From Aquipuribacter sp. SD81 (GTDB lineage Bacteria; Actinomycetota; Actinomycetes; Actinomycetales; JBBAYJ01), in the NCBI RefSeq assembly GCF_037153975.1, contig NZ_JBBAYJ010000002.1, forward strand, positions 124,001 to 188,000: 64,000 nt of DNA, in the 5' to 3' direction. The position numbers and the translations under genes were made by a program. Positions 25,112 to 49,508 of this stretch are shown in pieces. Every line of letters begins with the position of its first letter. Within the stretch, counting starts at the first letter, position 1. Under the pieces are notes generated by a model. The model was not told the DNA's origin, searched no databases, and saw only the letters and a list, made by a program, of their open reading frames with translations.

Positions 25112-25183
25112 CCGGCCGCCCGCACCGCACCGGCCCGACCGGCCCGTCGGACCACCGTCCCCGTCCCCGCGTACGGTCGACGG

Positions 25184-28382: not shown

Positions 28383-28510
28383 CGTCGTGCACGACCGTCC
28401 GGAGGACGGGTGCAGCGGAGACGCCTCACGCACGACCGTGTCGTGTGCGACACGGTCGTGCGTGAGCGGCACCATGACCCCGTCCCGCCGAGGAAGGTCG
28501 CGCACGACCG
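28383..28510. repeat. CGCACGAC-family intergenic repeats, locus 1
   Basis: Lies between convergent genes. A perfect hairpin at 28425-28466 has 19-bp arms (CTCACGCACGACCGTGTCG and its complement) and a TGTG loop. A TCGTGCACGACC unit stands at its left (28385-28396) and GGTCGCGCACGACC at its right (28497-28510). It probably ends transcription from both sides. Confidence 0.85.
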
Positions 28511-28540
28511 GTCCACCGCTCGAGCGGGGCCGACCGGGCC

Positions 28541-30010
28541 TCAGCGCGCGACGTGGTTCGGCTGCAGCAGACCGGTCGGGTCGACCGCGGCCCGCACCGC
28601 CTGCAGCCGCTGCCACGCCGCCGGCGCGTAGCCCTTCGACGTGTCGCCCGCGTCCTCGACGAAGTTGAGCAGCACGCGGTCGGCGTCCCACGGGGCCAGC
28701 GCGTCGCGCGCGGCGGCGACGTCGGCGCGCCCGGCGGTGACCGCCTCCGGGAACGGCGTGACGGCCGCGAAGAACGCGACGTAGCCGAACGGCAGGTGGT
28801 CGAGCACCCCGCCGCCCGCCGCGGGACGGGCCAGGGCGCCACCGAGGTGGCGCAGCTCCGCGACGAGCAGGGACGTCGGCGCACCCGGCCCCACGGCCGC
28901 GAGGAACGCCTCGACCGTGTCCGCCTCCAGGGCGCGGAGCGGGCGCGAGCCGCCGACGGAGGGCGTCGGACCCTCCGGGTCCATGTGGATCCTGGTGACC
29001 GCGGTCGCGGGCGTCCGCGCGAAGGTGTCGATCTCCGGGGCCAGGGCGCGCAGCGCAGCGAGGCGTTCCGTGCCGGTGGCGTCGTCGGCCAGCACGGCAC
29101 CGTCGACGACGACGACGGTGCGCCCGGACAGGAACGGCGGCAGCTCCGGCAGCGGCGGCAGGCGCAGGACGCGGCACGACGTCGTCGTGTCCTCCGGCAG
29201 GTCGGCGGTCCAGCGCGCCCACGCGCGCACGACGTCGGGAGCCCGCTCGCCGTCCCACAGGAGCATGCCGGCGTACGCGTCGGCGACGGGCAGCAGCCCG
29301 ATCTCGAGCGCCGTCACGACCGCGAGACCACCGCCCCCGCCGCGCAGCGCCCAGAAGAGGTCGGGCTCCGTGTCGGCGTCGCAGCGCACGAGGTCGCCGC
29401 CGGCCGTCACGACCTCCAGTGCCCGGACGGCGTTGGTCGCGAGGCCGTGGGCGCGCGCGTACCAGCCGATGCCGCCGCCCAGGCAGAACCCGGCGACGCC
29501 GACGTCGGGCGAGGACCCGTGCAGCGCCGCGAGGGCGTGCTCGGCCGCGAGCGGCACGACGTCGTCCCACACCGCTCCGGCGCCGACGCGCGCCGTGCGC
29601 GCGACCGGGTCGACCGTCACGTCCCGCAGGGCGGTGGTGCGCAGCAGGACGGTGCGGCTCAGGTCCTGCTCCCCGAGGGGACCGGCGCCGTGGCCGGTGC
29701 CCTGCGGGGCGACGCGCAGGCCGTGCCGGGCGGCCGCGCGGACCACGCGGACGACGTCCTCGGCGGTCTGCGGCAGCGCGACGGCGGCCGGGTGCTGGGC
29801 GACGGCGACGTTCCACGGCGTGCGGGCGGCGTCGAAGTCGTCGTCGCTCGGCAGCCGCACGAGCTCGCCGAGCTCGTGGCGCAGCGCCAGCACCGACGCG
29901 ACGGCGACGGCCTCGGCGGTCTCGGCGGTCTCGGCGGTCTCGCTGGTCTCGACGGACTCGGCGGCCGGCGGCTCGGCGGGGACGGGGACGGACGGGGTGC
30001 TGACGGACAC
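28541..30010 (-). CDS. FAD-linked oxidase (berberine-bridge-enzyme type)
   Basis: A 489-aa flavoprotein of the VAO/PCMH family. The FAD domain begins near residue 60 and carries APQGTGHGAGPLG, where the His is the usual site of covalent FAD linkage. GFCLGGGIGWYARAHGLATN follows. The C-terminal LLQPNHVAR matches the BBE domain end. A low-complexity Glu/Thr/Ala stretch (ETAETAETAEA) precedes the catalytic part. The start GTG at 30010 has AGGAGG on the coding strand at 30018-30023. It shares the upstream 60-bp element with 9946-10518 and is divergent from a GAF-LuxR regulator. Substrate unknown; carbohydrates and alkaloids are known for the family. Confidence 0.9.
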   Translation of the reverse strand: MSVSTPSVPVPAEPPAAESVETSETAETAETAEAVAVASVLALRHELGELVRLPSDDDFDAARTPWNVAVAQHPAAVALPQTAEDVVRVVRAAARHGLRVAPQGTGHGAGPLGEQDLSRTVLLRTTALRDVTVDPVARTARVGAGAVWDDVVPLAAEHALAALHGSSPDVGVAGFCLGGGIGWYARAHGLATNAVRALEVVTAGGDLVRCDADTEPDLFWALRGGGGGLAVVTALEIGLLPVADAYAGMLLWDGERAPDVVRAWARWTADLPEDTTTSCRVLRLPPLPELPPFLSGRTVVVVDGAVLADDATGTERLAALRALAPEIDTFARTPATAVTRIHMDPEGPTPSVGGSRPLRALEADTVEAFLAAVGPGAPTSLLVAELRHLGGALARPAAGGGVLDHLPFGYVAFFAAVTPFPEAVTAGRADVAAARDALAPWDADRVLLNFVEDAGDTSKGYAPAAWQRLQAVRAAVDPTGLLQPNHVAR

Positions 30011-30100
30011 GGTGCTTCCTCCTGCTGTCTGGTGCCCGCCGGTGGGCGGGCCGTCTCGAGGAGGAGCGTGGGCCGGTTCACGTACATGCGTCAGTCCCCC

Positions 30101-30160
30101 GGGCGAGGGGACCTCCCTCCGGGCTCCCGTGGGAACGGGCGACCCCCCAGCGAACTGGGG
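30101..30160 (-). promoter_or_regulatory. Conserved 60-bp upstream element, copy B
   Basis: Second copy of the element described at 10609-10668, without gaps and again 91 bp from the start codon of the adjacent minus-strand gene. Contains GGGCGAGGGGACCT and GTGGGAAC...CCCCCCAG...CTGGGG. It also lies 38 bp before the GTG of the divergent LuxR gene, so it could control both. Confidence 0.65.
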
Positions 30161-30197
30161 ATGGTGCTCGCGCGCCCGCGAGGTCCACACTCCCTCC

Positions 30198-31313
30198 GTG
30201 GCACGTGGCCTGACCACCCAGCGGGTCCTGCGCGACGTCGACGTGCTCGCGCGCGCCGGGCTCGACCTGGAGACCTTCCTCGGCGAGGCGCTCGACTCCT
30301 TCTCGCGCGCCGTGCCCTTCGTCGCGGCGTGCGTCGCGTCCGTCGACCCGGCGACCCTGCTGCTCACCGGCACGTGGAAGTTCGGCGACCTGCGGGGCAG
30401 GGACGACCACGACCACGAGTGGGGCCTGCGCGAGTACGGCACCGAGGACGCGACGTCGTTCCGCGACCTCGCCCGGCGCCCGGACCCTGCGGTCGCCGTC
30501 GGCCTCGTGCGCCGCGACGAGCAGGCGGCGACCCGGCGGGTCGAGGACTTCATGCGGCCCCACTACGGCTACACCGACGAGCTGCGGGTCGTCGCCAAGG
30601 ACCGTGGCCAGGCGTGGGGCGGCATCGCCCTGTTCCGCGACCCGGAGAGCGGGCGCTTCGACGAGGACGACGTCGCGACGATGGACGCGCTGTCGTCGTC
30701 GCTGTGCCTCGGCATCCGCACGGGGCTGCTGCTGTCCGCCGGTGAGGAGACCACGTCGGTCGCGAGCGGGCCGGCGGTCATCATCGTGGGACCCGATGGG
30801 CAGGTGAAGCAGTTCAGCGCCGGCGCCGCCGAGCGGGTCTCGCAGCTCCTCGGCGTCATCTCGACGCCCGAGGCCGACGGCATGATCACGTCGCTGGTCG
30901 GCGCGGCCCGCCGCTACGCCCGCGGCGAGGTGGACCTGCCACCGCGCGCCCGGGTCCGCTCGCGCACCGGCATGTGGCACGTGCTCCACGCCTCGCCCAT
31001 GTACGGCTCCGGCGGCCTCGTCGGCGACGTCGTCGTGACCATCGACGACGCGCGTCCGCCCGACGTCGTCCCGCTCGTCGTGGCGGCGTACGACCTGACC
31101 CCGCGCGAGCGCGACGTCACCCAGCTCGTGCTGCAGGGCCTCGACACCAAGGAGATCGCCACGAGCCTGCACCTGTCGGCGTGGACGGTGCAGGACCACC
31201 TCAAGTCGGTCTTCGACAAGGCGGGCGTCCGCAGCCGGCGCGAGCTCATCGCCCGCGTGTACTTCGACCGGTACGTGCCGAAGGTGCGCGAGCCCGCGGA
31301 CGCCTGGGGCTGA
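30198..31313 (+). CDS. GAF-domain LuxR-type regulator
   Basis: A 371-aa regulator. A GAF-like domain (about 20-185) contains RVEDFMRPHYGYTDELRVV and GGIALFRDPESGRFDEDDVA. A PAS-like segment follows (AVIIVGPDGQVKQFSAGAAE). The C-terminal LuxR helix-turn-helix is at about 300-355: DLTPRERDVTQLVLQGL, then SAWTVQDHLKSVFDKAGVRS. CACACT ends 6 nt before the GTG, a leaderless layout. It is divergent from the flavin oxidase and probably acts at the 60-bp element between them. The signal sensed is unknown. Confidence 0.88.
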   Translation: MARGLTTQRVLRDVDVLARAGLDLETFLGEALDSFSRAVPFVAACVASVDPATLLLTGTWKFGDLRGRDDHDHEWGLREYGTEDATSFRDLARRPDPAVAVGLVRRDEQAATRRVEDFMRPHYGYTDELRVVAKDRGQAWGGIALFRDPESGRFDEDDVATMDALSSSLCLGIRTGLLLSAGEETTSVASGPAVIIVGPDGQVKQFSAGAAERVSQLLGVISTPEADGMITSLVGAARRYARGEVDLPPRARVRSRTGMWHVLHASPMYGSGGLVGDVVVTIDDARPPDVVPLVVAAYDLTPRERDVTQLVLQGLDTKEIATSLHLSAWTVQDHLKSVFDKAGVRSRRELIARVYFDRYVPKVREPADAWG

Positions 31314-31322
31314 CGGCCGGGC

Positions 31323-31365
31323 CCAAGCACCAGCCAAGGCCGGCGCAAGGGGGCGGGGCGAGGCT
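31323..31365 (+). promoter_or_regulatory. SARP/BTAD-type operator: three CAAG repeats at 11-bp steps
   Basis: CAAG starts at 31324, 31335 and 31346. The last heptamer GCAAGGG (31345-31351) is 8 bp before GAGGCT (31360-31365). Transcription would start near 31372, giving a leader of about 40 nt for the NmrA-like gene at 31413. Confidence 0.78.
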
Positions 31366-31412
31366 CGGTGCAGCGCCGGGACGAGCCCGGCCCCCGAACG
31401 AGAGGCACTCCC

Positions 31413-32420
31413 GTGGCACCGTCCCGCCCCACCGTCCCCGTCCTGCAGGGCCCGCTGCCCGCGGGCGCGCCTGTCCTCGTCATCGGCGCGACCGGCCAGG
31501 TCGGCCGGCACGTCGTCGCCTCACTGCTCGCCCGCGGGGCGCGCGTCCGCGCCCTCCTGCGCGACCCCGACCGCGCCGACGTGCCCGCCGGCGTCGAGCG
31601 GGTCCGCGGCGACCTGCGCGACGTCGCCTCGCTGCGCGCGGCCCTGCGCGGCGCCGGCGCCGCCTTCTACGTGACCCCGCACGAGACGGACGAGCGGGAG
31701 CTCGCGCGGACCGTCCTCGCGGCGTGCGAGGCGGAGCGCGTACGGCTCGTCTTCACCGGCGTCCACGTCCACGCCCGGAACCCGGTGACGGAGGCCGTGA
31801 TGCGCGTCGTCATGGGCCGGGTGCTCCCCCACTACCGGGGCAAGATCGCCCTCGCGCGCGAGGTCGCCCGGCACCCGCTGCGCCCGGTCCTCGTCGTGCC
31901 CGGCAACTTCATGCAGAACGACGAGGTCTTCGCCGACGAGATCCGCGCCGGCCGCTACGTGACGCCGCTCAGCGCGAAGGGCGTCAACCGGGTCGACCTG
32001 CGAGACGTGGGCGACGTGGTGGCGCGCGCGCTCGTCGACGGCGACCTCGCGCCCGGCGCGTACGACGTGTCGGGCCCAGCGTCGATCGGCGGCGCCGAGT
32101 CCGCGGCCGTGTGGGCGGCGGAGCTCGGGCACCCGGTCGCCTACCTCGGCGACGACGACGAGCTCATGGCTCGGACCTTCGCGCGGTACCTGTCCGGGCA
32201 CCGCCTCGCGGACTGGACGGCGTCCTTCCGTGTCCTCCGTCGCATCTCGATGCCGACGAAGCCGCGCGACGTCGCCGCCACCCGGGAGCTGCTCGGCCGC
32301 GAGCCGCGCGACTTCGCCACCTACGTGCGCGACACCGTGACCGCCTGGCGGGCCGAGGAGCAGGACGAGCGTGCCGACGCCGGAGCCGTGCCGGCCGGCG
32401 CAGGAGCCGGCACCGCCTGA
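31413..32420 (+). CDS. NmrA-like NAD(P)-binding protein
   Basis: A 335-aa Rossmann protein of the atypical short-chain dehydrogenase/NmrA group. The binding motif VLVIGATGQVGRHV lies near 22-35 and the Arg of RALLRDPDRAD favours NADP. The usual active-site Tyr-x-x-x-Lys is not clear (PHYRGKIALAREVA instead), so a redox-sensing or oxidoreductase role is open. The GTG at 31413 has GAGAGG upstream. Its promoter is the SARP-type site at 31323-31365. A C-terminal Glu/Ala-rich tail is unusual. Confidence 0.85.
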   Translation: MAPSRPTVPVLQGPLPAGAPVLVIGATGQVGRHVVASLLARGARVRALLRDPDRADVPAGVERVRGDLRDVASLRAALRGAGAAFYVTPHETDERELARTVLAACEAERVRLVFTGVHVHARNPVTEAVMRVVMGRVLPHYRGKIALAREVARHPLRPVLVVPGNFMQNDEVFADEIRAGRYVTPLSAKGVNRVDLRDVGDVVARALVDGDLAPGAYDVSGPASIGGAESAAVWAAELGHPVAYLGDDDELMARTFARYLSGHRLADWTASFRVLRRISMPTKPRDVAATRELLGREPRDFATYVRDTVTAWRAEEQDERADAGAVPAGAGAGTA

Positions 32421-32540
32421 GCGGGCTCGTCCGTCGGGCGAGCCGGACGGACGTGCCCGACCACGACGGGTGAGCCCGCGGCCCCGGACGGTCACGCGTG
32501 CGCGATGTGACGGGTCGGACCCAGCGGACGGCGACTCACA

Positions 32541-32716
32541 ACAGTCGTGCACGACCACCTGAGAGCGGGTCCTTCCGAGCACCGTCGACGCACGACTGTG
32601 TCGCGCACGACTGTGTGGTGCGCGACACAGTCGTGCGCGACACAGTCGTGCGCGACACAGTCGTGCGTGAGCGGAGCGGGACACACCACTCCCTCCGCAG
32701 GTCGTGCACGACCGAC
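32541..32716. repeat. CGCACGAC-family intergenic repeats, locus 2
   Basis: In the 370-bp space between convergent genes. Two CACGACTGTGTCGCG-type units are followed, after GGTG, by three inverted copies of CGCGACACAGTCGTG (15 bp each), so a long stem can form. TCGTGCACGACC flanks both sides (32545-32556 and 32702-32713). Further right, a 10-bp GACCGGCTTC tandem (about 32730-32757) is unrelated. No gene is visible in 32421-32790. Confidence 0.85.
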
Positions 32717-32790
32717 CATGACCGGCCTCGACCGGCTTCGACCGGCTTCGACCGGCCGGCGGACGGGCCGCCCTCGAAGCCGATCCGGCT

Positions 32791-35700
32791 TCAGAAGCCG
32801 AGGTCGGCGCGACGCTCGCGCAGCCAGTCCAGGTAGCGGTCCAGCCCCCAGTCCCGCGCGAGGCGCTCCGCCACGTCACCGTGCCGCCGTGCCTCGTCCC
32901 GCTCCCCCGCCGTCGCGGCGGCGAGCGCGAGGTACCCGTCGACCGGCCCCTGCGCGATGGCGATGCCGGCGACGCACATGCGTCCGGCGAGCGGCCGCAG
33001 CAGCGGCAGCACGCGCGCCGCCCGTGCGGCGTCGCCGGCGGCGGCCGCCGCCTCGGCCTCCCAGCAGTGCGTCCACGTGCTCGACCACAGCCCGGCGAGG
33101 TCCGGCAGCGGGTGGTGCGCCAGCGCCACGCGCAGCTGGTCGGGCCGGTCGGACCGGGCGAGAGCGGCGTGCAGGATCGGCCACAGCATGGGGTGCAGGT
33201 CGGCCGCCGCGTCGATGACGGCGCTGTGCTCGGCGAGGGACTCGTCCCACATGTGGAGCAGCAGCGCGTCCATGTTCGCCTCACGCTGCGGCCCCGGGAC
33301 GGCGACGTCGCGCAGCGCGTCGTAGTACAGCGTCACCGACTCCTGCAGGGCCGCGGCGTCGCCGCGCAGCGTCGCGAGGTTCGACTCGACGAGGTGGCGC
33401 GCCATGCGCACGTAGGGCAGCCGGTGGCGGCGGGCGAGGGCGTCGGCGCGCTCGGCGAGCTCCGCCCACCCGTCGGGCCCCTCGCGCTCCAGCCGGTTGC
33501 CGGCGAGAGCGAGTGCCGCCACCGACTCCGCGGCGGGGTCGCCCGCCCGCTCCGCCGCGCGCAGGGCCTCCTCGGCGTACCCGAGCTGCTCGTCGAGGCG
33601 CGCCGGGAACCACGTCGCGTGCCAGGCGGCCCGGTACGCCCACCACAGCAGCCAGGGGTCGTCGAGGCGACGGGCGGTCGCGAGACCCGCCTCGACGAGG
33701 GCGGCGCGCTCCGCCGCGGCCCCTCGGTCGTAGTACAGCTGCACCGCGAGGGAGAGCAGGAGGCGGCACCGCGCGGGGCTGTCGCCGCTCGGCAGCGCCT
33801 CGAGCGCCCAGCGCAGGTCCTCGAGCAGGTCGGCCCGTCGACGACGTCCCACTCCTGCGGTGTCCACAGCGCGTACCGGTTGAGGCCCGCCGCGGCCGTG
33901 GCGGCGAGCTCGGGGTCGCCGACCCCCCGCGCGATCGCGACTGCCTCCGTGCACGCCTCCACGACCGGCGGCCACACCGCGGCGAGGGCGGCGTCCTGGG
34001 CGAGGTCGAGCAGGAGCCGGTAGCGGTCGATCGGGTCCGAGCGCGAGCTGCGGCGCTGCGCGGCCACGGCCGCCTCCCGCCACTTGAACGCCTCCAGGTG
34101 CGCCGACAGGGCTCGGGCCTGGTCGGCCGCCGCGCGCGCCGCGGGCCACGCCCGGTCGGCGTGCGACGGGCCGGCCGCGGTCCAGTGCCGCGCGAGCTCC
34201 GTGGTGCGCTCGTCGGGCTCCACGTAGCGGGCGTCCGCCTCCTCGAGCAGCCGCGCGAGCCGGGCGTGGCGACGTGCCTGCTGCGACGCTCCGAGCGTGC
34301 GGAGCACCGCGTCCCGTGTCAGCGCGTGCGCGAAGGCCCACGTGCCGGTGCCGGTCTCCGCGACGAGCCCCTGCGCGACGGCGACGGCGAGCGCGTCCTC
34401 GGCCGCGTCCTCCTCGGCGTCGCTCGCGGCGGCCACGAGGGCGGAGCCGAAGGAGCGTCCGACGACCGCGGCCGTGCGAAGCAGCTCCTGCGTGACCTCG
34501 GGCAGGTCCCCGAGCCGGCGTCGTACGACGTCGAGGACGCCTCCGGGCACGGCGTCCGCGCTGCCGCCGGTGGCGGTGACCCGGGCGAGCTCGGCGAGGT
34601 AGAACGGGTTGCCGCCGCAGCGCTGGTGCCAGGCGGCGACCTCGCCGTCGGGCACGTCGGCGTGCGCGAGCGGGCGCACGAGCTCGGCCGCGGCGGCGAC
34701 GCCGAGGCCGCGCAGGTCGAGGCGCACGCTCTGGCGCCGCGCGAGGGCGTCGGCGGCGAGCGCGAGCGTGCCCGACGGCTCGGGGTGCGCGCGGCGGGAC
34801 ACGACGAGGGCGAGGCGGGCGTCGTCGGGGGCGCTGCCGAGCAGGTGCGCGAGCGCCCGGTGCGTCGCCTCGTCGGCCCAGTGCAGGTCGTCGAGCACGA
34901 GCAGGACGGGGCGCTCGGCCGCCGCGTCGAGCACCCCGCGGGCGACGCGCTCCCACGTGCCGAAGGCGGGTGCGTCGCCGGTGGGGACGAGCTCGAGCGG
35001 TGAGGCGGCGCCGGCGCCGAGGTCGCGCAGCACCTGCAGGAACGGCCAGAGCGGGGGCGCGCCGTCGTCCTGCGAGCAGCGCCCGGTCGCGACCGTCACG
35101 CCCCGGGCCCGGGCCGCGGCGGCGAGGTCGCCGAGCAGCGCGCTCTTGCCGATGCCTGGCTCCCCCACGACCACGCCGACGGCGGTACGGCCTGCGAGCG
35201 CCGCGTCGAGCAGGCCTGAGAGCGCGGCCTGCTCCTCGGCCCGTCCGACGAGAGCCGGTGGTCCCGGCACGGACGCCGGCTCGCTCGACGGCTCGCTCGA
35301 GGGCCCGCTCGGCAGGTCGCCCGGCGCCTCGCCCGACGGCTCACCCGGTACCTCGCTCGACGGCGCGCTCGCCGGCTCACTCTGCCGGGCCGGCGGGGCC
35401 GGCGGGGCCGGCGCGGCGACGGGCGGCGGGGGCAGCAGAGGGACGAGGAGGGCGGCCTCCTGCCGGAGCACGCGCCGCTCGAGGTCCTGCACGCGCGGGG
35501 TGGGGTCGAGGCCGAGCTGGTCGGCGAGCGCCTCGCGCAGGGTCCGTAGCGCGTCGAGCGCCTCGACCTGGCGTCCCGAGCGGTAGAGGGCGAGCGCGTG
35601 CAGGGCCCACACCTGCTCCGACAGCGGCTGCTCGGCCGTCGCGTCCGCCGTCCACGCGAGGGCGCCGGACGCGTCGCCGGTGGCGAGCAGCGCCGTCGCC

Positions 35701-36263
35701 CGGGCGAGCCGGCCCTCGGCGCGGCGGCGCTCCAGCCCCGCGCGCTCCTGCTCGACGTCGAGGTGGGCGGGCAGGTCGGCGTAGGGCGTCCCGCCCCACC
35801 ACGCGTCGACGGCCTCGAGCCGCTCGACCGTCCCCAGCACCACGTCGCGACCGGGCAGCGGCGGGCCGGCACCGCCCGGCAGCCGGGCCGGCAGCGGGTC
35901 GAGCACGCGCAGGCAGTCGTCGACCTCGCGCGCGAAGGCGTGTGCGTCGACCTCGTCGGGCGCCACGTCGAGGACGTAGCCGTGGTCGGTGGTGACGATG
36001 GCGGCGCCGCCGTCGGCCGCGGACCCGCGCAGCACCGTCCGCAGGCCCGACACGTACGCGTGGACGGCGGAGCGGACCGCGCGCGGCGGCGCACCGTCCC
36101 AGACGAGGTCGGCGAGCGCGTCGAGGGACACGGGACGCCCCGGCGTCATCGCCAGGGCCGCCAGCAGCGCCCGAGGCTTGCGCGCGCCGACCGGTGCGGC
36201 CGCCGCTCCCCCGTCGCCCGAGGGGCCGGGGACCCGCGTGGACCCGAGCACGAGGAGGCGCAC
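32791..36263 (-). pseudogene. BTAD/SARP regulator with AAA ATPase and TPR-like domains, disrupted by a 1-bp frameshift
   Basis: The gene encodes an about 1158-aa AfsR-like regulator when the frame is repaired. An OmpR-type winged helix (about 1-95: RKPRALLAALAMTPGRPVSL) is followed by a BTAD domain (about 100-245: EVDAHAFAREVDDCLRVLDP), a Pro/Ser linker, an AAA domain with Walker A VVVGEPGIGKSALLG and Walker B VLLVLDDLHWADE, and helical repeats. The frame breaks near 33836-33841: one frame ends its sense at TPQEWDVVDG, the other resumes at RADLLEDLRW. One missing C restores it. The GTG at 36263 is 6 nt after TACCGT (36270-36275). The DNA-binding and ATPase parts remain intact upstream of the break, so a truncated product could still bind DNA. 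A sequencing error is possible. Confidence 0.85.
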
Positions 36264-36307
36264 GCGCACACGGTAGGCGGCGACCCGGCCGTCGTACCCG
36301 GCAACGT

Positions 36308-36350
36308 GCAAGCCCGGCCCAAGCCCGACCCAAGGGGCGCCGGTCAGGCT
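36308..36350 (+). promoter_or_regulatory. SARP/BTAD-type operator: three CAAG repeats at 11-bp steps
   Basis: CAAG starts at 36309, 36320 and 36331. The last heptamer CCAAGGG (36330-36336) is 8 bp before CAGGCT (36345-36350), giving a start site near 36357 for the hemerythrin-like gene. The repeats also lie about 35 bp upstream of the regulator's own -10 on the other strand, so autoregulation is possible. Confidence 0.8.
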
Positions 36351-36428
36351 CGTCCCGACGCCCGGCGGACGGCCGGGACGCCCCACCAGGCCGCCGGACA
36401 CCGGGCGGCCCCCACGAGGAGAGCAGCC

Positions 36429-37148
36429 ATGACCACCACCTCCGGCACGACTCAGGTCGACCTGCCCGGCCAGGCCCACGTCGCCGACGGCCCGCACGAC
36501 CAGACCGGCATGTACCTCATGCACCACGCCTTCCGCCGCGACCTCGGCCGCTTCGAGGCTGCCGCCCGGGCGACCCCCGTCGAGGCGGCCGCGACGTGGC
36601 GGGCGCTGGAGCAGCGCTGGCACCGCTTCGGCGAGGTGCTGCACCACCACCACACCGTCGAGGACGACACGGCGTGGCCGCTCATGAAGACGCGGGCGAC
36701 CGAGGCCGGCGAGCCGGCGGCGGTGGAGGTGCTCGACGCCATGGAGGCCGAGCACGACCAGATCGACCCCGCGCTGCACGCGTGCGGGTCGGCGCTGCGG
36801 GACATGGTCGAGCACCCGTGCTCCGACCACCGCAACGCCCTCGCCGTGACCATCGCCTCGGCCCGCGCCGCCCTGCTCGCCCACCTCGCGCACGAGGAGA
36901 CGGACGCGCTGCCGCTGTGGCAGCGGCTGTTCACCGCCGCGGACCACGAGACGACGGAGCGCGCCGCGCGGTCCGGCTACCCGGCGTCGCTCATGTTCGG
37001 CTTCATGCTGCCGTGGATGGCCGACGAGCTGCCGGAGCCCGTCCTGCGTCGCGTCCTGGCAGACGCCCCGCCCGGGTACGGCCTCGCCCTCCGCCTCGCG
37101 CGCATCGGCTACGAGCGCAAGGAGCGGCGCGCGTTCGGCTACGCGTGA
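36429..37148 (+). CDS. Hemerythrin-like HHE-domain protein
   Basis: A 239-aa protein with the four-helix HHE pattern: MYLMHHAFRRDLGRF, EVLHHHHTVEDDTAWPLM, EVLDAMEAEHDQID and HEETDALPLW, giving the His/Glu/Asp ligands for a di-iron site. A C-terminal extension (SLMFGFMLPWMADELPEPVL) is shared by actinobacterial relatives. The protein may bind oxygen or nitric oxide or sense iron or redox state. A GGAGAGCAGCC site precedes the ATG. Transcription should start from the SARP-type site at 36308, so it is the regulator's immediate neighbour and likely target. Confidence 0.88.
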   Translation: MTTTSGTTQVDLPGQAHVADGPHDQTGMYLMHHAFRRDLGRFEAAARATPVEAAATWRALEQRWHRFGEVLHHHHTVEDDTAWPLMKTRATEAGEPAAVEVLDAMEAEHDQIDPALHACGSALRDMVEHPCSDHRNALAVTIASARAALLAHLAHEETDALPLWQRLFTAADHETTERAARSGYPASLMFGFMLPWMADELPEPVLRRVLADAPPGYGLALRLARIGYERKERRAFGYA

Positions 37149-37225
37149 GGCGTCGCCGCGGGTGACCGGGGGCCGCGCCGCGCACCATGGCGCGGCCCCG
37201 GCCGGGCACGACAGGATGGCGAGTC

Positions 37226-38641
37226 GTGAGCGCCCCGTCCCACACCGTGCACGCCGACGCCCCCGCGCAGCCGTACCTCACGCTGCGGGACCGGCCGACG
37301 CCGCGGGCCGAGCGCCACGCCATGGGCAAGGCGCTGCGGAAGCGGGTGCGGCGCCGGAGCCTCGGCGAGTGGGGCGTCGCCGACGACCGGGCCGACCCCG
37401 TCGACCTCGTCGAGCGCTCGCACGAGGGCCGCGAGGAGTGGCTCGTGCCGGCGCGGGTGGGGCGCATGGTCGCCTCGCCGTACGGCTTCCTGCGGGGCAG
37501 CGCGATCGTCATGGCCGCGGACTGCGCGGGCCTGCCCTCGACGGGCATCACGCCCGTCATCTGCGGCGACTCCCACGTCGGCAACTTCGGCTTCTACGGC
37601 TCGCCGGAGCGCGAGCTCGTCCTCGACCTCAACGACTTCGACGAGGCGCACCCCGGCCCGTGGGAGTGGGACCTGCGGCGGCTGTGCGCGAGCACGTGGG
37701 TCGCGGGGCGCCAGAACGGGCACTCGGAGGACGACTGCGCCGCCGCGGTCACGTCGTGCTCGGCGGCCTACCGGGCGCAGGTCCGGCGCCTGGCGGAGGA
37801 GCCGCTGCTGTCGCGGTCCTTCGAGCGCCTCGACCTCGAGCACCTGCTCGCCGCGACGAACGACGACGAGCTCGCCCGCGCCATCGAGCACGCCGCCGGC
37901 AAGGCGCGCAGCCGCACGAGCGACCGCGCGCTGCCGCGGTTCACGCAGGAGGACGAGGCCGGCGAGCGGCGGATAGTCGAGGAGCCGCCGCTCATCACGC
38001 GGCTCGACGCGCTGCACGCCGAGGCGCTCGCCGTCGGCCTCGACGACTACCTGGAGACGCTGCCGTCGCACTGGCGGCGCCTGCTCGGCGGCTACACAGT
38101 GCTCGACATGGCGCACAAGGTCGTGGGCGTCGGCAGCGTCGGGCTGCGCGCGTACGTCGCGCTGTGCGAGGGCAGCAGCCCCGACGACGTGCTGTTCCTG
38201 CAGCTCAAGCAGGCGCGGCGCTCGGTGGTCGCGCCGTACGTCCACGGCGACTCCGCCTGGCACGACCACCAGGGCCAGCGTGTCGTGGAGTACCAGCAGG
38301 CGCTGCAGACGGTCAGTGACCCGCTGCTGGGCTGGACGACGGTCGAGGGCCGGCAGTTCTACGTCCGGCAGTTCCGCAACATGAAGGGCACGCTCGCCCT
38401 GGACCGGATCGGCGCTGCCGCCTTCGCGGACTACGTCGGCATCTGCGGGCGCCTGCTCGCCAAGGGCCACGCCCGGACCAGCGGCGCCTCGATGATCGCC
38501 GGCTACGTGGGCAAGGGCGAGGTCCTCGACGAGGCGATGTGCCGCTTCTCCCGCGCCTACGCCGACCAGACCGAGGCCGACCACGCCGCCCTCGCCGCCG
38601 CGGTCCGCTCGGGTCGGGTGGCCGCTGAGCACGGCGTCTGA
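37226..38641 (+). CDS. DUF2252 family protein
   Basis: A 471-aa protein of the DUF2252 family, which has a phosphotransferase-like fold. Signatures are ICGDSHVGNFGFYGS and LDLNDFDEAHPGPWEWDL (Asp residues as in kinase-like metal sites), VLDMAHKVVGVGSVG and FLQLKQARRS. Its biochemical function is unknown. The GTG at 37226 was chosen from an AGGATGG site upstream; an ATG at 37187 is in frame. Repeat locus 3 follows its stop. Confidence 0.88.
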   Translation: MSAPSHTVHADAPAQPYLTLRDRPTPRAERHAMGKALRKRVRRRSLGEWGVADDRADPVDLVERSHEGREEWLVPARVGRMVASPYGFLRGSAIVMAADCAGLPSTGITPVICGDSHVGNFGFYGSPERELVLDLNDFDEAHPGPWEWDLRRLCASTWVAGRQNGHSEDDCAAAVTSCSAAYRAQVRRLAEEPLLSRSFERLDLEHLLAATNDDELARAIEHAAGKARSRTSDRALPRFTQEDEAGERRIVEEPPLITRLDALHAEALAVGLDDYLETLPSHWRRLLGGYTVLDMAHKVVGVGSVGLRAYVALCEGSSPDDVLFLQLKQARRSVVAPYVHGDSAWHDHQGQRVVEYQQALQTVSDPLLGWTTVEGRQFYVRQFRNMKGTLALDRIGAAAFADYVGICGRLLAKGHARTSGASMIAGYVGKGEVLDEAMCRFSRAYADQTEADHAALAAAVRSGRVAAEHGV

Positions 38642-38689
38642 CGAGCCCGTCGCTCGCTCCGACCACGGCGGTCCTGACGCGGCCGGATA

Positions 38690-39008
38690 GGTCGTGCACG
38701 ACCACCTCAGGAGGGTCCTGTCCTCGTGACGGTTACGCACGACCGTGTCGCGCACGACCGTGTCACGCACGACTCAGTCGCGGCCGACACAGTCGTGTGC
38801 GATGCAGTCGTGCGCGATGCAGTCGTGCGCGATGCAGTCCTGCGCGATGCAGTCCTGCGCGATGCAGTCGTGCGTGAGGAGACGACGGACGACCCCACCC
38901 CAGGACGGTCGCGCACGACACGGTCGTGCGTGAAGAGACGACGGACGACCCCACCTCAGGACGGTCGCGCACGACACAGTCGTGCGCGGGGAGACGACGG
39001 ACGACCCC
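38690..39008. repeat. CGCACGAC-family intergenic repeats, locus 3, with a 56-bp tandem
   Basis: Fills the 375-bp space between convergent genes. GGTCGTGCACGACC (38690-38703) begins it. CGCACGACCGTGTCG-type units follow, then five 15-bp copies of CGCGATGCAGTCGTG (38798-38872). From 38880 a 56-bp unit is repeated 2.3 times (copies begin at 38880, 38936 and 38992), each containing AGACGACGGACGACCCC and CGCGCACGACACGGTCGTGC. No gene is present in this interval. Confidence 0.88.
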
Positions 39009-39016
39009 GTCAGGCA

Positions 39017-40015
39017 TCAGCGTCGCAGCAGCCGCCGCAACCACGCGTAGCGCGCCTCGAAGGCGTCCGAGGCGAGCAGCGAGCCCGGCACGAGCCCGTC
39101 GAAGCCGTGGCAGCCGCCGGGCCACACGTGCAGCTCGGCGTCGCCGCCCGCGGCCCAGATGGCCGAGGCGTAGGCCACGTCCTCGTCGCGGAAGGTGTCG
39201 GCGGACCCGACGTCGACGTACGCCGGCGGCAGACCCGACAGGTCGCGCGCACGGGCGGGCGCCGCGTACGCGGGCACGTCCGGTCCGCCCGCGGCCTCGC
39301 CGAGCATGGCCCCCCAGCCGGTGGCGTTGGCCGTCCGGTCCCACACCCCCACGCCTGCCATCTGGAACGAGGACGGCGTCGAGTTCCGGTCGTCGAGCAT
39401 GGGGTAGACGAGCAGCTGCCCGCGCAGCGCCGGGGCGCCCCGGTCGCGCGCACGGAGCGCGAGCGCCGCCGCGAGGCCCCCGCCGGCGCTCGCGCCCATG
39501 ACCACCACCTGCGCGGGGTCGATGCCGAGCGCGGGCGCCTCGGCAACGAGCCACGTGAGCCCGCGCAAGCAGTCGTCGAGCGGACCGGGGTAGCGCGTCT
39601 CCGGGGCGAGCCGGTACTCCACCGACACCACCGCGAGCCGCAGCGCCTCGGCGAGCGCGAGGACCGGCATGAGGTCGCGTCGTGCGTTGCCGGCGACGAG
39701 GCCGCCGCCGTGCACGAAGTACAGGACCGGCACGGGGCCGGGCAGGTCGGCGTCGGTCGGCAGGCAGACGACGAGCGGGACGTCCGGCTGGTCCCCTTCC
39801 CCCGGCACGACCACGTCGCGCACCGCGAAGCGGCCGCCGCGCGACAGCGCCTCGTCGTCGGGGTCCGGGTCGGCGGGCGGGCGCTCGCGGACCGCGACGA
39901 CCTCCTCCGGCAGCATCGCGGTCACGAGCTCGTCGGCGTGCAGCTCGAGCGCCCGGGCGACGTCCGGGTCGAAAGGCGGGCGCACGACGTCGGTGCGCGG
40001 GGCGGGCAGGCTCAT
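39017..40015 (-). CDS. Alpha/beta hydrolase of the hormone-sensitive lipase type
   Basis: A 332-aa esterase. The oxyanion motif is VHGGG, the nucleophile lies in VVMGASAGGGLAAA (GxSxG), the acid in VDVGSADTFRDEDV and the His in PGGCHGFDGLV. It is cytoplasmic, with no signal peptide. The ATG overlaps the stop of the permease gene (ATGA), making it the fourth gene of an SBP-permease-permease-esterase operon. In this context it may remove acyl groups from imported oligosaccharides, which is inference. Confidence 0.88.
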   Translation of the reverse strand: MSLPAPRTDVVRPPFDPDVARALELHADELVTAMLPEEVVAVRERPPADPDPDDEALSRGGRFAVRDVVVPGEGDQPDVPLVVCLPTDADLPGPVPVLYFVHGGGLVAGNARRDLMPVLALAEALRLAVVSVEYRLAPETRYPGPLDDCLRGLTWLVAEAPALGIDPAQVVVMGASAGGGLAAALALRARDRGAPALRGQLLVYPMLDDRNSTPSSFQMAGVGVWDRTANATGWGAMLGEAAGGPDVPAYAAPARARDLSGLPPAYVDVGSADTFRDEDVAYASAIWAAGGDAELHVWPGGCHGFDGLVPGSLLASDAFEARYAWLRRLLRR

Positions 40016-40836
40016 CCCTTCACCGACCCCTGCAGCAGCGCGGACACGAACTGGCGCTGGAAGACGAGGAACACCAGCAGCGTGGGCGTGAGGATGAGCA
40101 GCGACCCCGCGCACAGCAGCGGGATGTCGGTGCCCCACTGCCCCTGGAACGCACCGAGCGCGCCGGCCATCGTCCGCTTGCCGGGGTCGTCGACGAGCAC
40201 GATGGCGAGGAGGAACTGGTTCCACGTCCACAGGAACAGCAGGATCGCCAGCGACGACAGCGCCGGCGCCGCGAGCGGCACGTGGATCCGCCACAGCTGC
40301 TGCCACGTGCTCGCGCCGTCGATCTGGGCCGCCTCCACGAGCTCCTTCGGCATGGTGACGAAGTGGGCGCGCATCCACAGCACCGCGAACGGCATGAACA
40401 GCCCGATGAGCGGCAGCACGATGGCCCACCTCGTGTTGAGCAGCCCGAGGTCGCGCATCTGGTAGTACAGCGGGATGACGATGCCCTCGAAGGGCAGCGT
40501 GAGCCCGAGCACGAACAGCAGGAACACGACACCGCTGCCCCGCATGCGCAGCTGGCCGAAGGCGTAGCCGGCGAGCGTGCCGAGCACGAGGGCGAGCGGC
40601 ACGACCCCCACCACGATGAGACAGCTCGACCACAGCAGGCGGCCCATGTCCGCGGACGTGAACGCCCGGGCGAAGTTCTGCCACTGCGGGTCCGCCGGCC
40701 ACGACAGGCCCTGCGGGTAGGTGCCGGACGGGTGCAGCGCCGTGGCGAGCAGGCTGACGAACGGCAGCACCGTCACGGCCATGAGCAGCACGAGGACGAG
40801 CCGGCCGAGCAGCGCCTCGCCGCGACCGACGATCAC
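40012..40836 (-). CDS. CUT1 sugar ABC transporter permease (MalG type)
   Basis: A 274-aa permease with six TM segments (for example LVLVLLMAVTVLPFVSLLAT and GVVFLLFVLGLTLPFEGIV). The EAA motif reads LVEAAQIDGASTWQQLW (about 185), which binds the ATPase. GTG at 40836 overlaps the upstream permease stop. No ATPase is encoded in the operon; in actinobacteria a shared ATPase (MsiK) usually serves such transporters. Confidence 0.9.
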   Translation of the reverse strand: MIVGRGEALLGRLVLVLLMAVTVLPFVSLLATALHPSGTYPQGLSWPADPQWQNFARAFTSADMGRLLWSSCLIVVGVVPLALVLGTLAGYAFGQLRMRGSGVVFLLFVLGLTLPFEGIVIPLYYQMRDLGLLNTRWAIVLPLIGLFMPFAVLWMRAHFVTMPKELVEAAQIDGASTWQQLWRIHVPLAAPALSSLAILLFLWTWNQFLLAIVLVDDPGKRTMAGALGAFQGQWGTDIPLLCAGSLLILTPTLLVFLVFQRQFVSALLQGSVKG

Positions 40837-41807
40837 GAGTCCCCCTTCCGGACGAGGTACTGCACCGGCAGGACGCACAGCAGCACGAGCGCCACGAGGA
40901 CGACCGCGAGCGCGGAGGCGAGCCCGATCTCGCGCGAGGCGAAGGCGAGGTAGTAGATCTGCAGCCCTGGTACGAGCGTCTGCCCGCCCGGACCGCCCTG
41001 GGTCGAGATGTAGACGATGTCGAAGCTCGCGAGGGCCGCGATGACCGTCACGGTCACGCAGACGGCGATCTCCTGACGCACGCCGGGCACCGTGACGGCG
41101 AGGAACTCCCGCACCGGCCCGGCCCCGTCGATCCGCGCCGCCTCGTACAGCGACGTGTCGATCTTCGTCATGCCGGACAGCAGCAGCAGGGTGCACAGGC
41201 CGAGCAGCACCCACGCGCCGATGACGCCGACCGCCGGCAGGGCCCAGTCGAAGTCACCGAGCCACGCCCGGGCCACCGAGCCGAGGCCCACCGCCCGCAG
41301 GAGCTGGTTGACGGCGCCGGTCGACGACAGAAGCCAGCTCCACGTGATGCCGGCCGCGACGAGCGGGATGACCTGCGGGAGGAACACGACGGTCCGGGCG
41401 ACCGTCGCGAGCCGGCTCGTGGCGATGCGCCGGATGGTCGCGGCGGTCACGAGCCCGAGCAGCACCGGCACGCCGCTGAAGAACAGGATGAGGGTGACGG
41501 CGTTGAGCAGGGAGCCGTACAGCGTCGGGTCGGTGACCACGCGCACGTAGTTGTCGAGCCCGACGGGCGTCGAGGGACCGACGCCGTTCCACTCGTACAG
41601 CGAGTACTGCGCCGTGATGGCGAGCGGCCGGAGCACGAAGACGCCGTAGAAGGCCGCGGCGGGCAGGACGAGGAGCCAGCCGACGAGGTCGTCGCGGCGC
41701 CGACGGGCGGCGCGACGCCTCGTGCGGTCCGACCCGTCCACCGGGGGACGGTCGGTCGCGGCCGCGGCCGTTCGCCGCGCCGCCGGTGGACGGGTCTCCG
41801 CGATCAC
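40833..41807 (-). CDS. CUT1 sugar ABC transporter permease (MalF type)
   Basis: A 324-aa permease with an Arg-rich N-terminus (about 1-40), six TM segments and the EAA motif SLYEAARIDGAGPVREFL near 227. It starts at a GTG that overlaps the stop of the binding-protein gene and ends overlapping the second permease, all by GTGA. Together the three proteins form one importer. Confidence 0.9.
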   Translation of the reverse strand: MIAETRPPAARRTAAAATDRPPVDGSDRTRRRAARRRRDDLVGWLLVLPAAAFYGVFVLRPLAITAQYSLYEWNGVGPSTPVGLDNYVRVVTDPTLYGSLLNAVTLILFFSGVPVLLGLVTAATIRRIATSRLATVARTVVFLPQVIPLVAAGITWSWLLSSTGAVNQLLRAVGLGSVARAWLGDFDWALPAVGVIGAWVLLGLCTLLLLSGMTKIDTSLYEAARIDGAGPVREFLAVTVPGVRQEIAVCVTVTVIAALASFDIVYISTQGGPGGQTLVPGLQIYYLAFASREIGLASALAVVLVALVLLCVLPVQYLVRKGDS

Positions 41808-43210
41808 CGGCCGGCGACCTGGCTCTCGTAGTCCGCCTGCACCGTCGCGAGCAGGTCGGCGGGCTCGACCTGCCCCGCGACCAGCTGCTGCAGCTGCGGC
41901 GTCCAGCTCTGCGCGTAGATGGACCCGGTCGCGTTGGCGATGAAGTCCATCGCACCGTCGTCCTCGGCGATGGTCGCGCCCGCCTCGAGCGTCTCGGCGG
42001 TCACGCTGCCCTCGTCGACCGGCGGCATGTAGGCGTCGGCGGGACCCATGGGCCGCGAGCCGCCGACCTCGACGAGGATGTCGCGGGCCGTCTCCGACGT
42101 CGCGGTCCAGTCGAGGAAGAACGCCGCGCAGTCGGGGTTCGCCGCGTTCGCGCTGACACCGAACGTGAGCGGCGCGGACATGGCGGCCTGTGGGCCGCCC
42201 TCCTCCAGCGGCGGCATGAGGAAGAAGCCGACGTTGCCCGGCATCTGCTCGTCGAGGTTCCCCGACTCCCAGTCGCCGTTGAAGATGAAGAGGCTGTCGC
42301 CCTCGATGAAGCGGGCCATCATCATCGAGTAGTCGAGGGAGTTGACGTCGTCGGCGAAGTAGCCCGCGTCGATCCAGCCCTGCAGGTGCTCGACCGCCTC
42401 GAGGTTCTCCGGGGTGTCGATGGTGGCGTCCGGCTGCTGGTAGATCCACGAGTTGATCGCCCCCGGGTCGCCGTAGGCGGCCATGAGGTTCTGCAACGGG
42501 AAGGCGAGGCCGCCCGTCGCGCCGCCGTTGAACTGCACGAGCGGCGTGATGCCCGCGTCGACCGCGGCCTGCATGACCTCGTCGAGCTCGGCGAGCGTGG
42601 CGGGCGGCTCCGTCATGCCGACCTGCTCCGCGAGCTCGCGGTTGTAGAAGATGCCGGTCATCGAGGAGTTGATGCCCATGGCGTAGAGCGGCCCGTCGCC
42701 GCGGCGCCCCTCGTCGTCGACGCGCATCTGCTCCAGCTGGGACTCCGGCCACTCGTCCCAGCCGAACGCCTCCGCGTAGGGGTCCATGTTGAGCAGCAGC
42801 CCGTCGGCGGCGAGCTCGGACACCTGCGGCAGGCGCATGAGGTCCGGCGGGTCGTCGGCGAGCACGCGGGGGGCGTTCTGCGTGAGGACGGCGAACTGGT
42901 CCTCGCGCACCTCCCACGTCACGTTGGGGTACTCCTCCATGAAGGCGTCGGTGAGCGCGGTCGCGACGGGGAAGCCCGTCTCGAAGTACGCCTCCATGGT
43001 GATCGGGTCGTCGCCGCAGTCGACGTCGGAGGCCACGGCGGCCCCGCTGGGGTCCGCGGAGCCCTCCGCGGCGGGGGCGCTCGCGTCGTCCGGCGCGGCC
43101 GCGTCGGTCGTGGACCCGCCCGGCGCGGAGCACGCCGCGAGGGGCAGCAGGCCGGCGAGGACGGCGGCGGGGATGAGTACGGGGTGGCGGTGCGTCCTCA
43201 GAGGGCGCAT
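41804..43210 (-). CDS. Sugar ABC transporter substrate-binding lipoprotein
   Basis: A 468-aa family 1 extracellular binding protein. The lipobox PLAAC (Cys27) is followed by a Ser/Ala/Asp linker and the mature domain from about residue 65 (ITMEAYFETGFPVATALTD, EYPNVTWEVRED). FIFNGDWESGNL and NAANPDCAAFFLDWTA are typical. The sugar is not identifiable. ATG start with GAGAGGAAGG upstream; promoter in the region shared with the divergent LacI gene. Confidence 0.9.
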   Translation of the reverse strand: MRPLRTHRHPVLIPAAVLAGLLPLAACSAPGGSTTDAAAPDDASAPAAEGSADPSGAAVASDVDCGDDPITMEAYFETGFPVATALTDAFMEEYPNVTWEVREDQFAVLTQNAPRVLADDPPDLMRLPQVSELAADGLLLNMDPYAEAFGWDEWPESQLEQMRVDDEGRRGDGPLYAMGINSSMTGIFYNRELAEQVGMTEPPATLAELDEVMQAAVDAGITPLVQFNGGATGGLAFPLQNLMAAYGDPGAINSWIYQQPDATIDTPENLEAVEHLQGWIDAGYFADDVNSLDYSMMMARFIEGDSLFIFNGDWESGNLDEQMPGNVGFFLMPPLEEGGPQAAMSAPLTFGVSANAANPDCAAFFLDWTATSETARDILVEVGGSRPMGPADAYMPPVDEGSVTAETLEAGATIAEDDGAMDFIANATGSIYAQSWTPQLQQLVAGQVEPADLLATVQADYESQVAGR

Positions 43211-43258
43211 GTGGGCCTTCCTCTCGTCGTCGAGTCTTGGGCCGACGGCCGACCGTCG

Positions 43259-43278
43259 GTGCTAAATCGCGTTAGCAC
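43259..43278. promoter_or_regulatory. LacI-type operator between binding-protein and regulator genes
   Basis: GTGCTAAATCGCGTTAGCAC has perfect 7-bp arms (GTGCTAA and TTAGCAC) around six bases. It lies in the divergent promoter region, 70 bp from the LacI start and 49 bp from the binding-protein start, where the LacI protein would repress both. Confidence 0.8.
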
Positions 43279-43348
43279 GGCGATGCTGACACCCGGGTTG
43301 TACTACCGTCAACCGCTGGGCGAGGCGGTCGCCCCCGAGGAGGTGGGC

Positions 43349-44434
43349 ATGCCGAGGACGCGGGCGACCCTCGCGGACGTGGCCCGGGCCGCCGGGGTGT
43401 CGTCCACCGCGGCCTCGCTCGTGCTGTCCGGGCGCGCGCGGGAGATGCGCATCTCCCGCGACGTGGAGGAGCGGGTCGTGCGCGCGGCGGGCGAGCTGTC
43501 GTACCGCCGCAACTTCGTGTCGGTGGGGCTGCGGACGGGCCGCACGGGCACGCTCGGCTTCGTCTCCGACACCGTCGCCACGTCGCAGCTCGCGGGCAAC
43601 ATGATCAAGGGGGCGCTCGAGCGGGCGCGCGAGCGCGACCTCATGCTGCTCATCGCGGAGTCCGGCGGCGACCCCGACGACGAGCGCCGCCTCCTGGCCG
43701 CGATGGGCGACCGGCAGGTCGACGGCCTGGTCCTCGCGAGCATGTACACGCGCGAGCGTGACGACCCGACCCCGGGCGTCCACGTCCCGGTGGTGCTCCT
43801 CAACGCGGCGGCGCCGGCCGGGTCCGGCGTGCCGACGGTCGTGCCCGACGAGCTCGGGGCCGGACGAGCCGCCGCGCGGACCCTGCTGGCGGCCGGTCAC
43901 CGCGACGGCATCCACCTCGTCGGGGTCGGCGTGACCGCCGAGGAGGTGCCGCCCGGGACCGTCGCCGGCCTCGAGCGCCTGCGCGGGATCACCGAGGCGC
44001 TCGCGGAGGTCGGCGAGCGGCCCGCCGGCGGCATGCTGTGCACGGCGTGGCAGCCGCCGGACGGCTACGAGGCGACGCGCGCGCTGCTCGCCCACGACCG
44101 GCCGACGGCGCTGCTGTGCTTCAACGACCACCTCGCGCTCGGGGCGTACCAGGCGCTCGCGGAGGCCGGGCTCCGCGTGCCCGACGACGTGTCGGTCGTC
44201 GCCTTCGACGACGTCCCGCTCGCCGGCTGGCTCCGCCCGGCGCTCACGACCGTCGCCCTGCCGCACCACGCGCTCGGTCGCGCCGCCATCGACGTGCTCG
44301 TCGACCTGGTCGGCGGTGGCAGCGGTGACGGCGGTGCCCACGACGGACACGGTGACGGCCCCGCGCACGTGCGCCTGCCCATGCCCCTGCGCGTCCGGGA
44401 GTCCGTGGCCCCGCCGCGCGAGCACCCGGTCTGA
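43349..44434 (+). CDS. LacI-family transcriptional regulator
   Basis: A 361-aa regulator. The LacI helix-turn-helix is RATLADVARAAGVSSTAASL then VLSGRAREMRISRDVEERV (about 5-45). The periplasmic-binding-like sensor follows, with LGFVSDTVATSQLAGNMIKG and VSVVAFDDVPLAGWLRPALT. A Gly/Asp/His-rich insert (about 325-340) precedes the end. ATG at 43349 is supported by GAGGAGG (43337-43343). It probably controls the importer operon at 43210-39017 through the operator at 43259. Confidence 0.9.
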   Translation: MPRTRATLADVARAAGVSSTAASLVLSGRAREMRISRDVEERVVRAAGELSYRRNFVSVGLRTGRTGTLGFVSDTVATSQLAGNMIKGALERARERDLMLLIAESGGDPDDERRLLAAMGDRQVDGLVLASMYTRERDDPTPGVHVPVVLLNAAAPAGSGVPTVVPDELGAGRAAARTLLAAGHRDGIHLVGVGVTAEEVPPGTVAGLERLRGITEALAEVGERPAGGMLCTAWQPPDGYEATRALLAHDRPTALLCFNDHLALGAYQALAEAGLRVPDDVSVVAFDDVPLAGWLRPALTTVALPHHALGRAAIDVLVDLVGGGSGDGGAHDGHGDGPAHVRLPMPLRVRESVAPPREHPV

Positions 44435-44452
44435 CGACCCGGCCCGCGGGTC

Positions 44453-44650
44453 GGTCGTGCACGACCACCTGGGGGGACACCCCGGGCTGCATCGGTCATG
44501 CACGACTGAGTCACGCGCGACAGAGTCGTGCGCGACGCAGTCGTGCGCGAGAGGTCGTGCACGACACGGTCGTGCACGACACGGTCGCGCGTCAGCGACA
44601 GCACACGCACCTCCCTCAGGACGGTCGCGCACGACACGGTCGTGCGTGCG
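44453..44650. repeat. CGCACGAC-family intergenic repeats, locus 4
   Basis: Between two genes on the same strand (44435-44707). GGTCGTGCACGACCACCT starts it, as in loci 2 and 3. CGCGACAGAGTCGTG and CGCGACGCAGTCGTG units follow, then GGTCGTGCACGACACGGTC copies, and a right end CCTCAGGACGGTCGCGCACG identical to part of the 56-bp unit of locus 3. A role as terminator for the LacI gene is likely. Confidence 0.85.
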
Positions 44651-44707
44651 GACCGGGCGTCACCTCACCGCTACCGGAGCCCCGGGCCGGTGCCCGACAC
44701 TGTCGTC

Positions 44708-46057: not shown

Positions 46058-46060
46058 CCG

Positions 46061-47569: not shown

Positions 47570-47744
47570 GCCCGTTTCCTTCCGTACGTCGCTGCACGCC
47601 CGTGGGAGCCCAACACGCGGGAGGTGCCCGGCGTCGCTGCTCACAGGCTGTCTGGTCGGCCACCGCACGGCGGCGCGGGTCACTGTAGCCACAGACTCGG
47701 GCGGTCCGGAAGGTCACGGTCCTGCGAAAGTGTGGGAACAGGGG

Positions 47745-47773
47745 TTGGCATCCCACCGACTCGGGTCTAGCGT
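47745..47773 (+). promoter_or_regulatory. Promoter of the polyol importer operon
   Basis: TTGGCA (47745-47750), a 17-bp spacer and TAGCGT (47768-47773) form a good promoter. The transcript would have a leader of about 236 nt before 48016. The rest of the 47570-48015 gap holds no convincing gene. GTGGGAACAGG and CCCACCGA around the -35 weakly resemble parts of the 60-bp elements at 10609 and 30101. Confidence 0.55.
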
Positions 47774-49413: not shown

Positions 49414-49508
49414 CCCTCGCCCCACGTCGCCGGGCGCGGTGCGGCACGCGCCGCGCCCGGTGGCACCACCCGGAGCCACCCCGGAGCCCTAGGAGACAGG
49501 AGCAGCCC

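Follow-up and report, generated by a model that had tools for sequence, protein, structure and literature searches.

Four intergenic sites built from a 12-bp palindrome, GTCGYGCRCGAC (P), lie in a 64-kb stretch of the Aquipuribacter sp. SD81 genome (the window, G000:C2:124001-188000; GC 74.7%; genome of 3.86 Mb in 69 contigs, 96.7% complete). The question raised by this locus is what kind of element they represent and what keeps P and its spacing. A preliminary description of the window had presented them as modular, recently amplified repeats resembling repetitive extragenic palindromic (REP)/BIME elements. The analysis reported here favours, with a probability of about 0.57, a lineage-restricted new family of small interspersed repeats that are non-autonomous and resemble BOX elements or REPINs in their build. 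These would spread in trans, grow by slippage and perhaps serve as 3' hairpins.

Structure of the elements and their number in the genome

The pattern GTCGTGCACGAC, searched with up to one mismatch, was matched 21 times in the window for 1.36 expected, a number reached by none of 100 shuffles, with 17 of the matches inside the four sites and four isolated. For GACACAGTCGTGCG, searched with up to two mismatches, 22 matches were obtained for 2.61 expected, all 22 inside the four sites. The four palindromic sites are therefore real and, judged by these two patterns, no fifth cluster is present within the 64 kb, in agreement with the preliminary description. Rfam gave no match at gathering score within the window.

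Decomposition of the sites revealed a common architecture, in which P, the basic unit of all four, is followed by a linker of about 29 bp, a series of P units separated by 3-bp spacers (15-bp pitch), another linker and a final P. Both ends of an element are inverted copies of a single 53-bp module, P-29-P', as observed once left and right modules are aligned, and the elements thus possess terminal inverted repeats, a feature of MITE type. The linker of the end modules opens with a loose CCRYCYKGAGG motif and the inner P' is mostly CTCACGCACGAC; in the left arm most spacers read YGT and in the right arm most read ACR, TCA or GCA, with CTCAC/GTGAG at the ends. The number of middle units varies in the window from three inner P's (site 1) up to ten (site 3), and both the 15-bp and the 56-bp tandem units previously reported are present. 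The terminal sequences are less uniform than had been described: the left end in GACCACCT holds for sites 2-4, site 1 having GACCGTCC instead, the right end GACGGTCGCGCACGAC holds for sites 3 and 4, with AAGGTCGCGCACGAC at site 1 and CAGGTCGTGCACGAC at site 2, and the exact 15-bp unit CGCGACACAGTCGTG occurs at site 2 only, the other sites carrying variants. Coordinates and neighbouring genes are given in Table 1.

Table 1. Palindromic elements of the window, with examples of their end modules and the tandem repeat of site 3
Feature	Position in window	Strand	Composition	Neighbouring genes	RNA fold z
Element 1	28384..28508	.	P-29-P'-3-P-3-P'-30-P	Convergent: GNAT gene (+, ends 28359) / FAD-oxidoreductase gene (-, ends 28541)	-7.7
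Element 2	32544..32712	.	P-29-[six P, 15-bp pitch]-29-P	Convergent: NmrA-like gene (+, ends 32420) / open reading frame (-, ends 32791)	-11.7
Element 3	38691..38987	.	P-29-[ten P, 15-bp pitch]-29-P, 56-bp P-3-P-29 repeat and trailing partial unit	Convergent: DUF2252 (+, ends 38641) / Abhydrolase_3 (-, ends 39017)	-7.4
Element 4	44454..44646	.	P-29-[array, one 2-bp spacer]-28-P and trailing unit	Tail to head: LacI regulator gene (+, ends 44434) / amine oxidase gene (+, starts 44690)	-6.0
Left end module, example (P-29-P')	32544..32596	+	53-bp unit modelled as R1		
Right end module, example	32660..32712	-	Inverted copy of the same 53-bp module		
56-bp tandem in site 3 (P-3-P-29 unit)	38865..39008	+	2.6 copies, 92% matches		

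The family is genuine and present beyond the window, with 17 sites in the genome: two on contig C1, six on C2 (four of them in the window) and one each on C4, C5, C7, C8, C12, C14, C16, C23 and C40. BLAST with element 2 (40 of 70 candidates scored) and R1, a sequence model for which 35 end modules were used (150 of 23,245 candidates scored), led to the same 17 sites. All 42 R1 matches at E<=0.001 fell inside them and, among the candidates scored, the first match outside appeared at E 0.0066. Since R1 was derived from modules of these sites, it confirms them by construction and adds only that no further site exists among the scored candidates. The count of 17 is a lower bound because contigs may break at such repeats. 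Two half-elements on C2, at 190961 and 192941, were counted as one, giving 16 elements, of which the one on C16 is a half-element and the one on C8 has an irregular left end.

Absence from relatives and position relative to genes

The exact 17-mer of the left end was present in one of 59 genomes tested, which is the source genome. Among 396 genomes of the order, R1 had no match in either congener (G001 and G002) and, besides the source genome, a single weak match in each of 12 (E 1.6e-4 to 9.2e-4; 14 candidates scored per genome, stricter filters). With two long element-bearing queries, other elements were matched in the source genome and, among the matches listed, in neither G001 nor G002. 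Tandem Repeats Finder, run on four 20-kb stretches of G001 whose composition was not measured, gave no P-like tandem among the rows listed. In a wider contig scan, at least 119 stretches matched the left-end 17-mer; none of them held three or more P pairs at the 15-bp pitch, and in one, L154, at least two P-like sites fell within 400 bp of each other. The three stretches viewed, L115, L134 and L154, looked coding. Pattern scans of viral contigs found nothing, and a literature search, judged mainly by titles, did not find a P-array family described in an actinobacterium.

Loci without element were sought in the congeners for seven of the 16 elements (window sites 1-4 and three more), three being readable in G001 and two in G002. 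The element was absent at all of them (3/3 and 2/2), at a resolution coarser than the exact insertion point. Between purH and mdh, G001 has 44 bp separating the gene matches and G002 about 385 bp of other DNA; the pyrimidine phosphorylase and adenosine deaminase genes adjoin in both congeners, and the isochorismatase and DNA ligase genes adjoin in G001. No element was found downstream of DUF2252, the gene beside site 3, in either congener. In the 80 kb of G001 sequence read from the syntenic region, the genes on either side of sites 1-4 are not neighbours; therefore, empty loci are not readable at those sites. Over these same 80 kb, window positions 31289-37239 and 38643-54076 had no G001 blastn match among the matches listed, forming a variable region which holds sites 2 and 4 and borders site 3. 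Taken together, gain in the source lineage is a simpler reading than loss in both sister species.

The position of the elements was examined over the window and 12 element-bearing loci, with p-values uncorrected across three orientation classes. Genes were called by a codon-usage script giving approximate starts, the GNAT gene of site 1 and the right-hand open reading frame (ORF) of site 2 being added by hand, and were identified for the most part by Pfam matches (NCBIfam for C14). Three window sites lie between convergent genes and one tail to head, as had been described, the right-hand ORF of site 2 matching nothing in Pfam or NCBIfam. Among all 16 elements, seven lie between convergent, eight between codirectional and one between divergent genes, compared with expectations from intergenic length of 20% for the convergent class (p 0.027) and 32% for the divergent class (one-sided p 0.019). 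At least one gene 3' end is found beside 15 of the 16, for 68% expected on the same basis, and the element on C5 runs about 18 bp into the called 3' end of the gene to its right. The convergent excess and divergent deficit are modest and in the direction of REPs. This location is not surprising, because the preference of REPs for spaces between convergent genes is already known (PMC1525189).

Conservation of P and competing explanations

Between elements, the outer P are 0.946 identical. The variable part of the linkers, on the other hand, shows 0.356 identity in alignment, or 0.350 ungapped against 0.303 for shuffled linkers, with a few between-element pairs far above this mean (best 0.72 to 0.78). 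Linker length is nevertheless nearly fixed, at 29 bp in 27, 30 bp in eight and 28 bp in one of 36 end modules, although these modules were hand-picked with the P-to-P spacing in view and the range is partly chosen. The gaps between successive P, free of such choice and counted with two mismatches allowed, are exactly 3, 29 or 30 bp in 102 of 119 cases; 13 others (18, 43, 44 or 45 bp) obey the same rule if one P was missed, and the remaining four (2, 4, 14 and 63 bp) do not. As the sites were found through P, its conservation is inflated, but a nearly fixed length with free sequence is not explained in this way. The combination of fixed geometry and free linker sequence points to a protein or enzyme recognising P. 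As to the recent amplification proposed in the preliminary description, it is consistent with the tandem units inside the elements and does not hold for their dispersal, because linker cores show hardly any relationship from one element to another. The spread of the family appears lineage-specific, though not recent.

In the reading favoured here, the elements would have spread within the lineage by transposase-like activity or recombination, supplied in trans and recognising the P ends, and insertions would survive where they cause little harm, mainly downstream of genes. Arrays would lengthen and shorten by slippage, and a sequence-specific protein, which could be the mobilising enzyme or one of the host, would maintain P and its spacing. 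When transcribed, copies could form strong 3' hairpins, with transcript ending or protection as a possible by-product.

Several observations weigh against this reading. No mobilising enzyme was found: RAYT (Y1_Tnp, PF01797), which was matched in 5 of 14 control genomes, gave no match at E<=0.001 in the source genome at its 96.7% completeness, and none of the neighbouring genes checked against Pfam and NCBIfam matched a transposase, the other transposase families not having been searched genome-wide. The resemblance to REP/BIME elements thus extends to location near gene 3' ends and to hairpin potential and not to a RAYT-type transposase. No target-site duplication was seen by eye, the intergenic DNA being too diverged from G001 for exact junctions. 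About 16 copies are few for a mobile family, and five of the 16 fall within 41 kb on C2, a number reached in 4 of 20000 uniform simulations. Such clustering speaks for local duplication no less than for dispersal; the linkers of these five are not clearly more alike (identity 0.45 vs 0.42). The absence of elements in the sister species could be loss. Finally, transposed copies decaying neutrally would not be expected to keep P while their linkers become near-random; this pattern requires that P be selected once inserted, or it reflects the finding of sites through P.

The elements could instead be transcription terminators or stabilisers of mRNA 3' ends, acting as long bidirectional hairpins which serve both convergent transcripts and are themselves what is selected. 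This is considered unlikely. The frequency of gene 3' ends beside the elements agrees with it, as do the strong RNA folds of the four window elements (z -6.0 to -11.7), but an array of palindromes is bound to fold well. If selection kept a long hairpin, the two arms of one element would be expected to match each other better than arms taken from different elements, which was examined by swapping arms between elements. Arms of the same element were no more alike than those of different elements, 2196 of 5000 permutations being at least as good for the whole linker and 1758 for its variable part (15 elements). Nor did they pair better in a test covering 13 of the 16 elements, the split element described below and those of C8 and C16 being left out: on the plus strand, 1119 of 5000 permutations were at least as good for the linker, 1235 for the linker with P', 2187 for the half module and 597 for the first array unit, and on the minus strand 1453, 1744, 1814 and 1143, respectively, the first array unit coming nearest to a signal. 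The arms of one element are not co-adapted and therefore give no evidence of selection for a long RNA hairpin.

Other hairpins bear on the same explanation. No terminator-like site with a U-tract was found at any of the four window sites, in a scan which does not cover U-less terminators, and one element lies between divergent genes. The purH-mdh gap of G001 holds an ordinary strong hairpin by eye, as a terminator role at this position would have it, but in the source genome a separate 10-bp stem already stands beside the element; therefore, such a role of the element is possible there and not needed. Hairpins were compared by the length of perfect stems, minimum energies over 44 nt being uninformative at 75% GC. 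Perfect stems of at least 8 bp outside the element did not separate gaps with an element from gaps without one in the three orientation classes (2/7 vs 1/12 convergent, 0/8 vs 8/52 codirectional, 0/1 vs 1/26 divergent).

One element is split (C2:190961-193064; L211:2961-5064), with a left half and two right halves and 1.9 kb between them. The two ORFs in this interval have a lower GC content (66.8% vs 76.3%), and one has a lipoprotein-like start by eye; neither matches Pfam, and the first has an NCBIfam match far below the cut-off (17.7 bits vs 100). Both have homologues in G001 and in the window at 13188-14920, where the gene pair shows 35% and 58% protein identity to that of the split element, includes a low-GC stretch (13501-14250) and has no P cluster nearby. 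The outer neighbours of the split element adjoin in G001. The similarity of its arms, 0.63, is above 98% of between-element values, an exception among the elements and as expected if the halves were one element. The gene pair may have been inserted into an existing element, or half-modules in inverted orientation may have enclosed it and moved it; a single case does not decide. A further, doubtful proposal takes the P array, with its 15-bp pitch and P-29-P brackets, as the target of a palindrome-binding protein; the array would be a roadblock acting both ways, or an insulator, at the ends of genes, and its inverted half-modules would form the ends of a mobile gene cassette such as this one.

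It is similarly doubtful that the elements are selected binding-site arrays for a host palindrome-binding protein, whether nucleoid-structuring, insulating or a transcription roadblock, with no role in mobility. Conserved P amid nearly free linkers, regular P-to-P gaps and the cluster of five on C2 would all suit such arrays. However, the analysis yielded no candidate protein, sites spaced at a 15-bp pitch keep no single face of the DNA, and the inverted organisation of spacers and of CTCAC/GTGAG ends is needless for a plain array of symmetric sites; moreover, the elements were not found in congeners and four gaps violate the spacing rule. As for the possibility that the sites are functionless and unrelated by descent, having arisen by local slippage or as GC-rich palindromes by chance, the GC content of about 75%, near-random linkers and obvious local tandem growth would fit, but this explanation is highly improbable and already disfavoured by the controls, with matches far above shuffles and reversed patterns (86/74 vs 13/11), end-module motifs and spacing common to 17 sites, and no P-like tandem among the rows listed for the G001 stretches.

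Other repeats of the window were noted. Positions 53650-53964 hold a tandem of about ten copies of a 31-bp unit with a 62-bp higher order, unlike P elements by eye, next to a long stretch that matches G001 at 83%. An inverted repeat of 488 nt with 80% complementarity joins 9945-10432 and 24625-25112, perhaps as paralogous gene segments, and about 14 copies of the nine-base tandem CCGGCGGGT occupy 23636-23758.

Comparison with known repeat families

As a general class, MITEs are likewise short and non-autonomous, with inverted ends and lineage-specific insertion, and differ in that neither a parent transposon nor a target-site duplication was identified here. BOX elements are far more numerous than P elements, and the likeness drawn with them rests on architecture, no boxA/B/C sequence having been compared and no relation being claimed. 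As described in PMC3049150, the BOX elements of Streptococcus pneumoniae also combine end modules with variable tandem middles, inverted ends, near-restriction to a narrow lineage and predicted RNA stem-loops. In the P elements, however, one module in two inverted copies makes up the ends, the middle unit is a 12-bp palindrome at a 15-bp pitch, and the target-site duplications said to accompany BOX (PMC3049150) were not seen.

REPINs, or REP doublets, are similarly extragenic inverted pairs of highly conserved short ends, with a spacer variable in sequence and preserved in length (PMC3116915). According to the same paper, they show common compensatory changes in the spacer and nearby RAYTs, whereas neither arm co-adaptation nor a RAYT was found here, and P, in itself a complete palindrome, recurs many times. 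The GTAG- and CGTC-tagged REPs (PMC3733652) are also short palindromes that follow genes, for the most part in spaces where the ORFs are convergent or unidirectional, and their spread has been hypothesised to depend on RAYTs; the phyla named for them in that paper do not include Actinobacteria, a word that its text does not contain. Just outside the outer P, GT[AC]G was read by eye at 15 of 29 ends (GTCG at 10, GTAG at five), a reading which leaves out the right-hand rows of sites 3, 4 and C14, where the array runs on. Compared with the GTAG superfamily of PMC3733652, the tag is thus degenerate, GTAG not standing at every palindrome, and no association with a transposase was found.

A high-GC actinobacterial family in which no RAYT was found separates what is preserved, the palindrome and its spacing, from what is not, the complementarity of the arms, and thereby makes the question of maintenance, by protein binding or by an RNA hairpin, directly testable. 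Taken together, the P elements look like a new family of BOX/REPIN-like repeats, whose location at gene ends is in itself already known for REPs. Judged by analogy, they would work most like BOX elements and REPINs, parting from REPINs in two respects, the RAYT and the compensation between arms.

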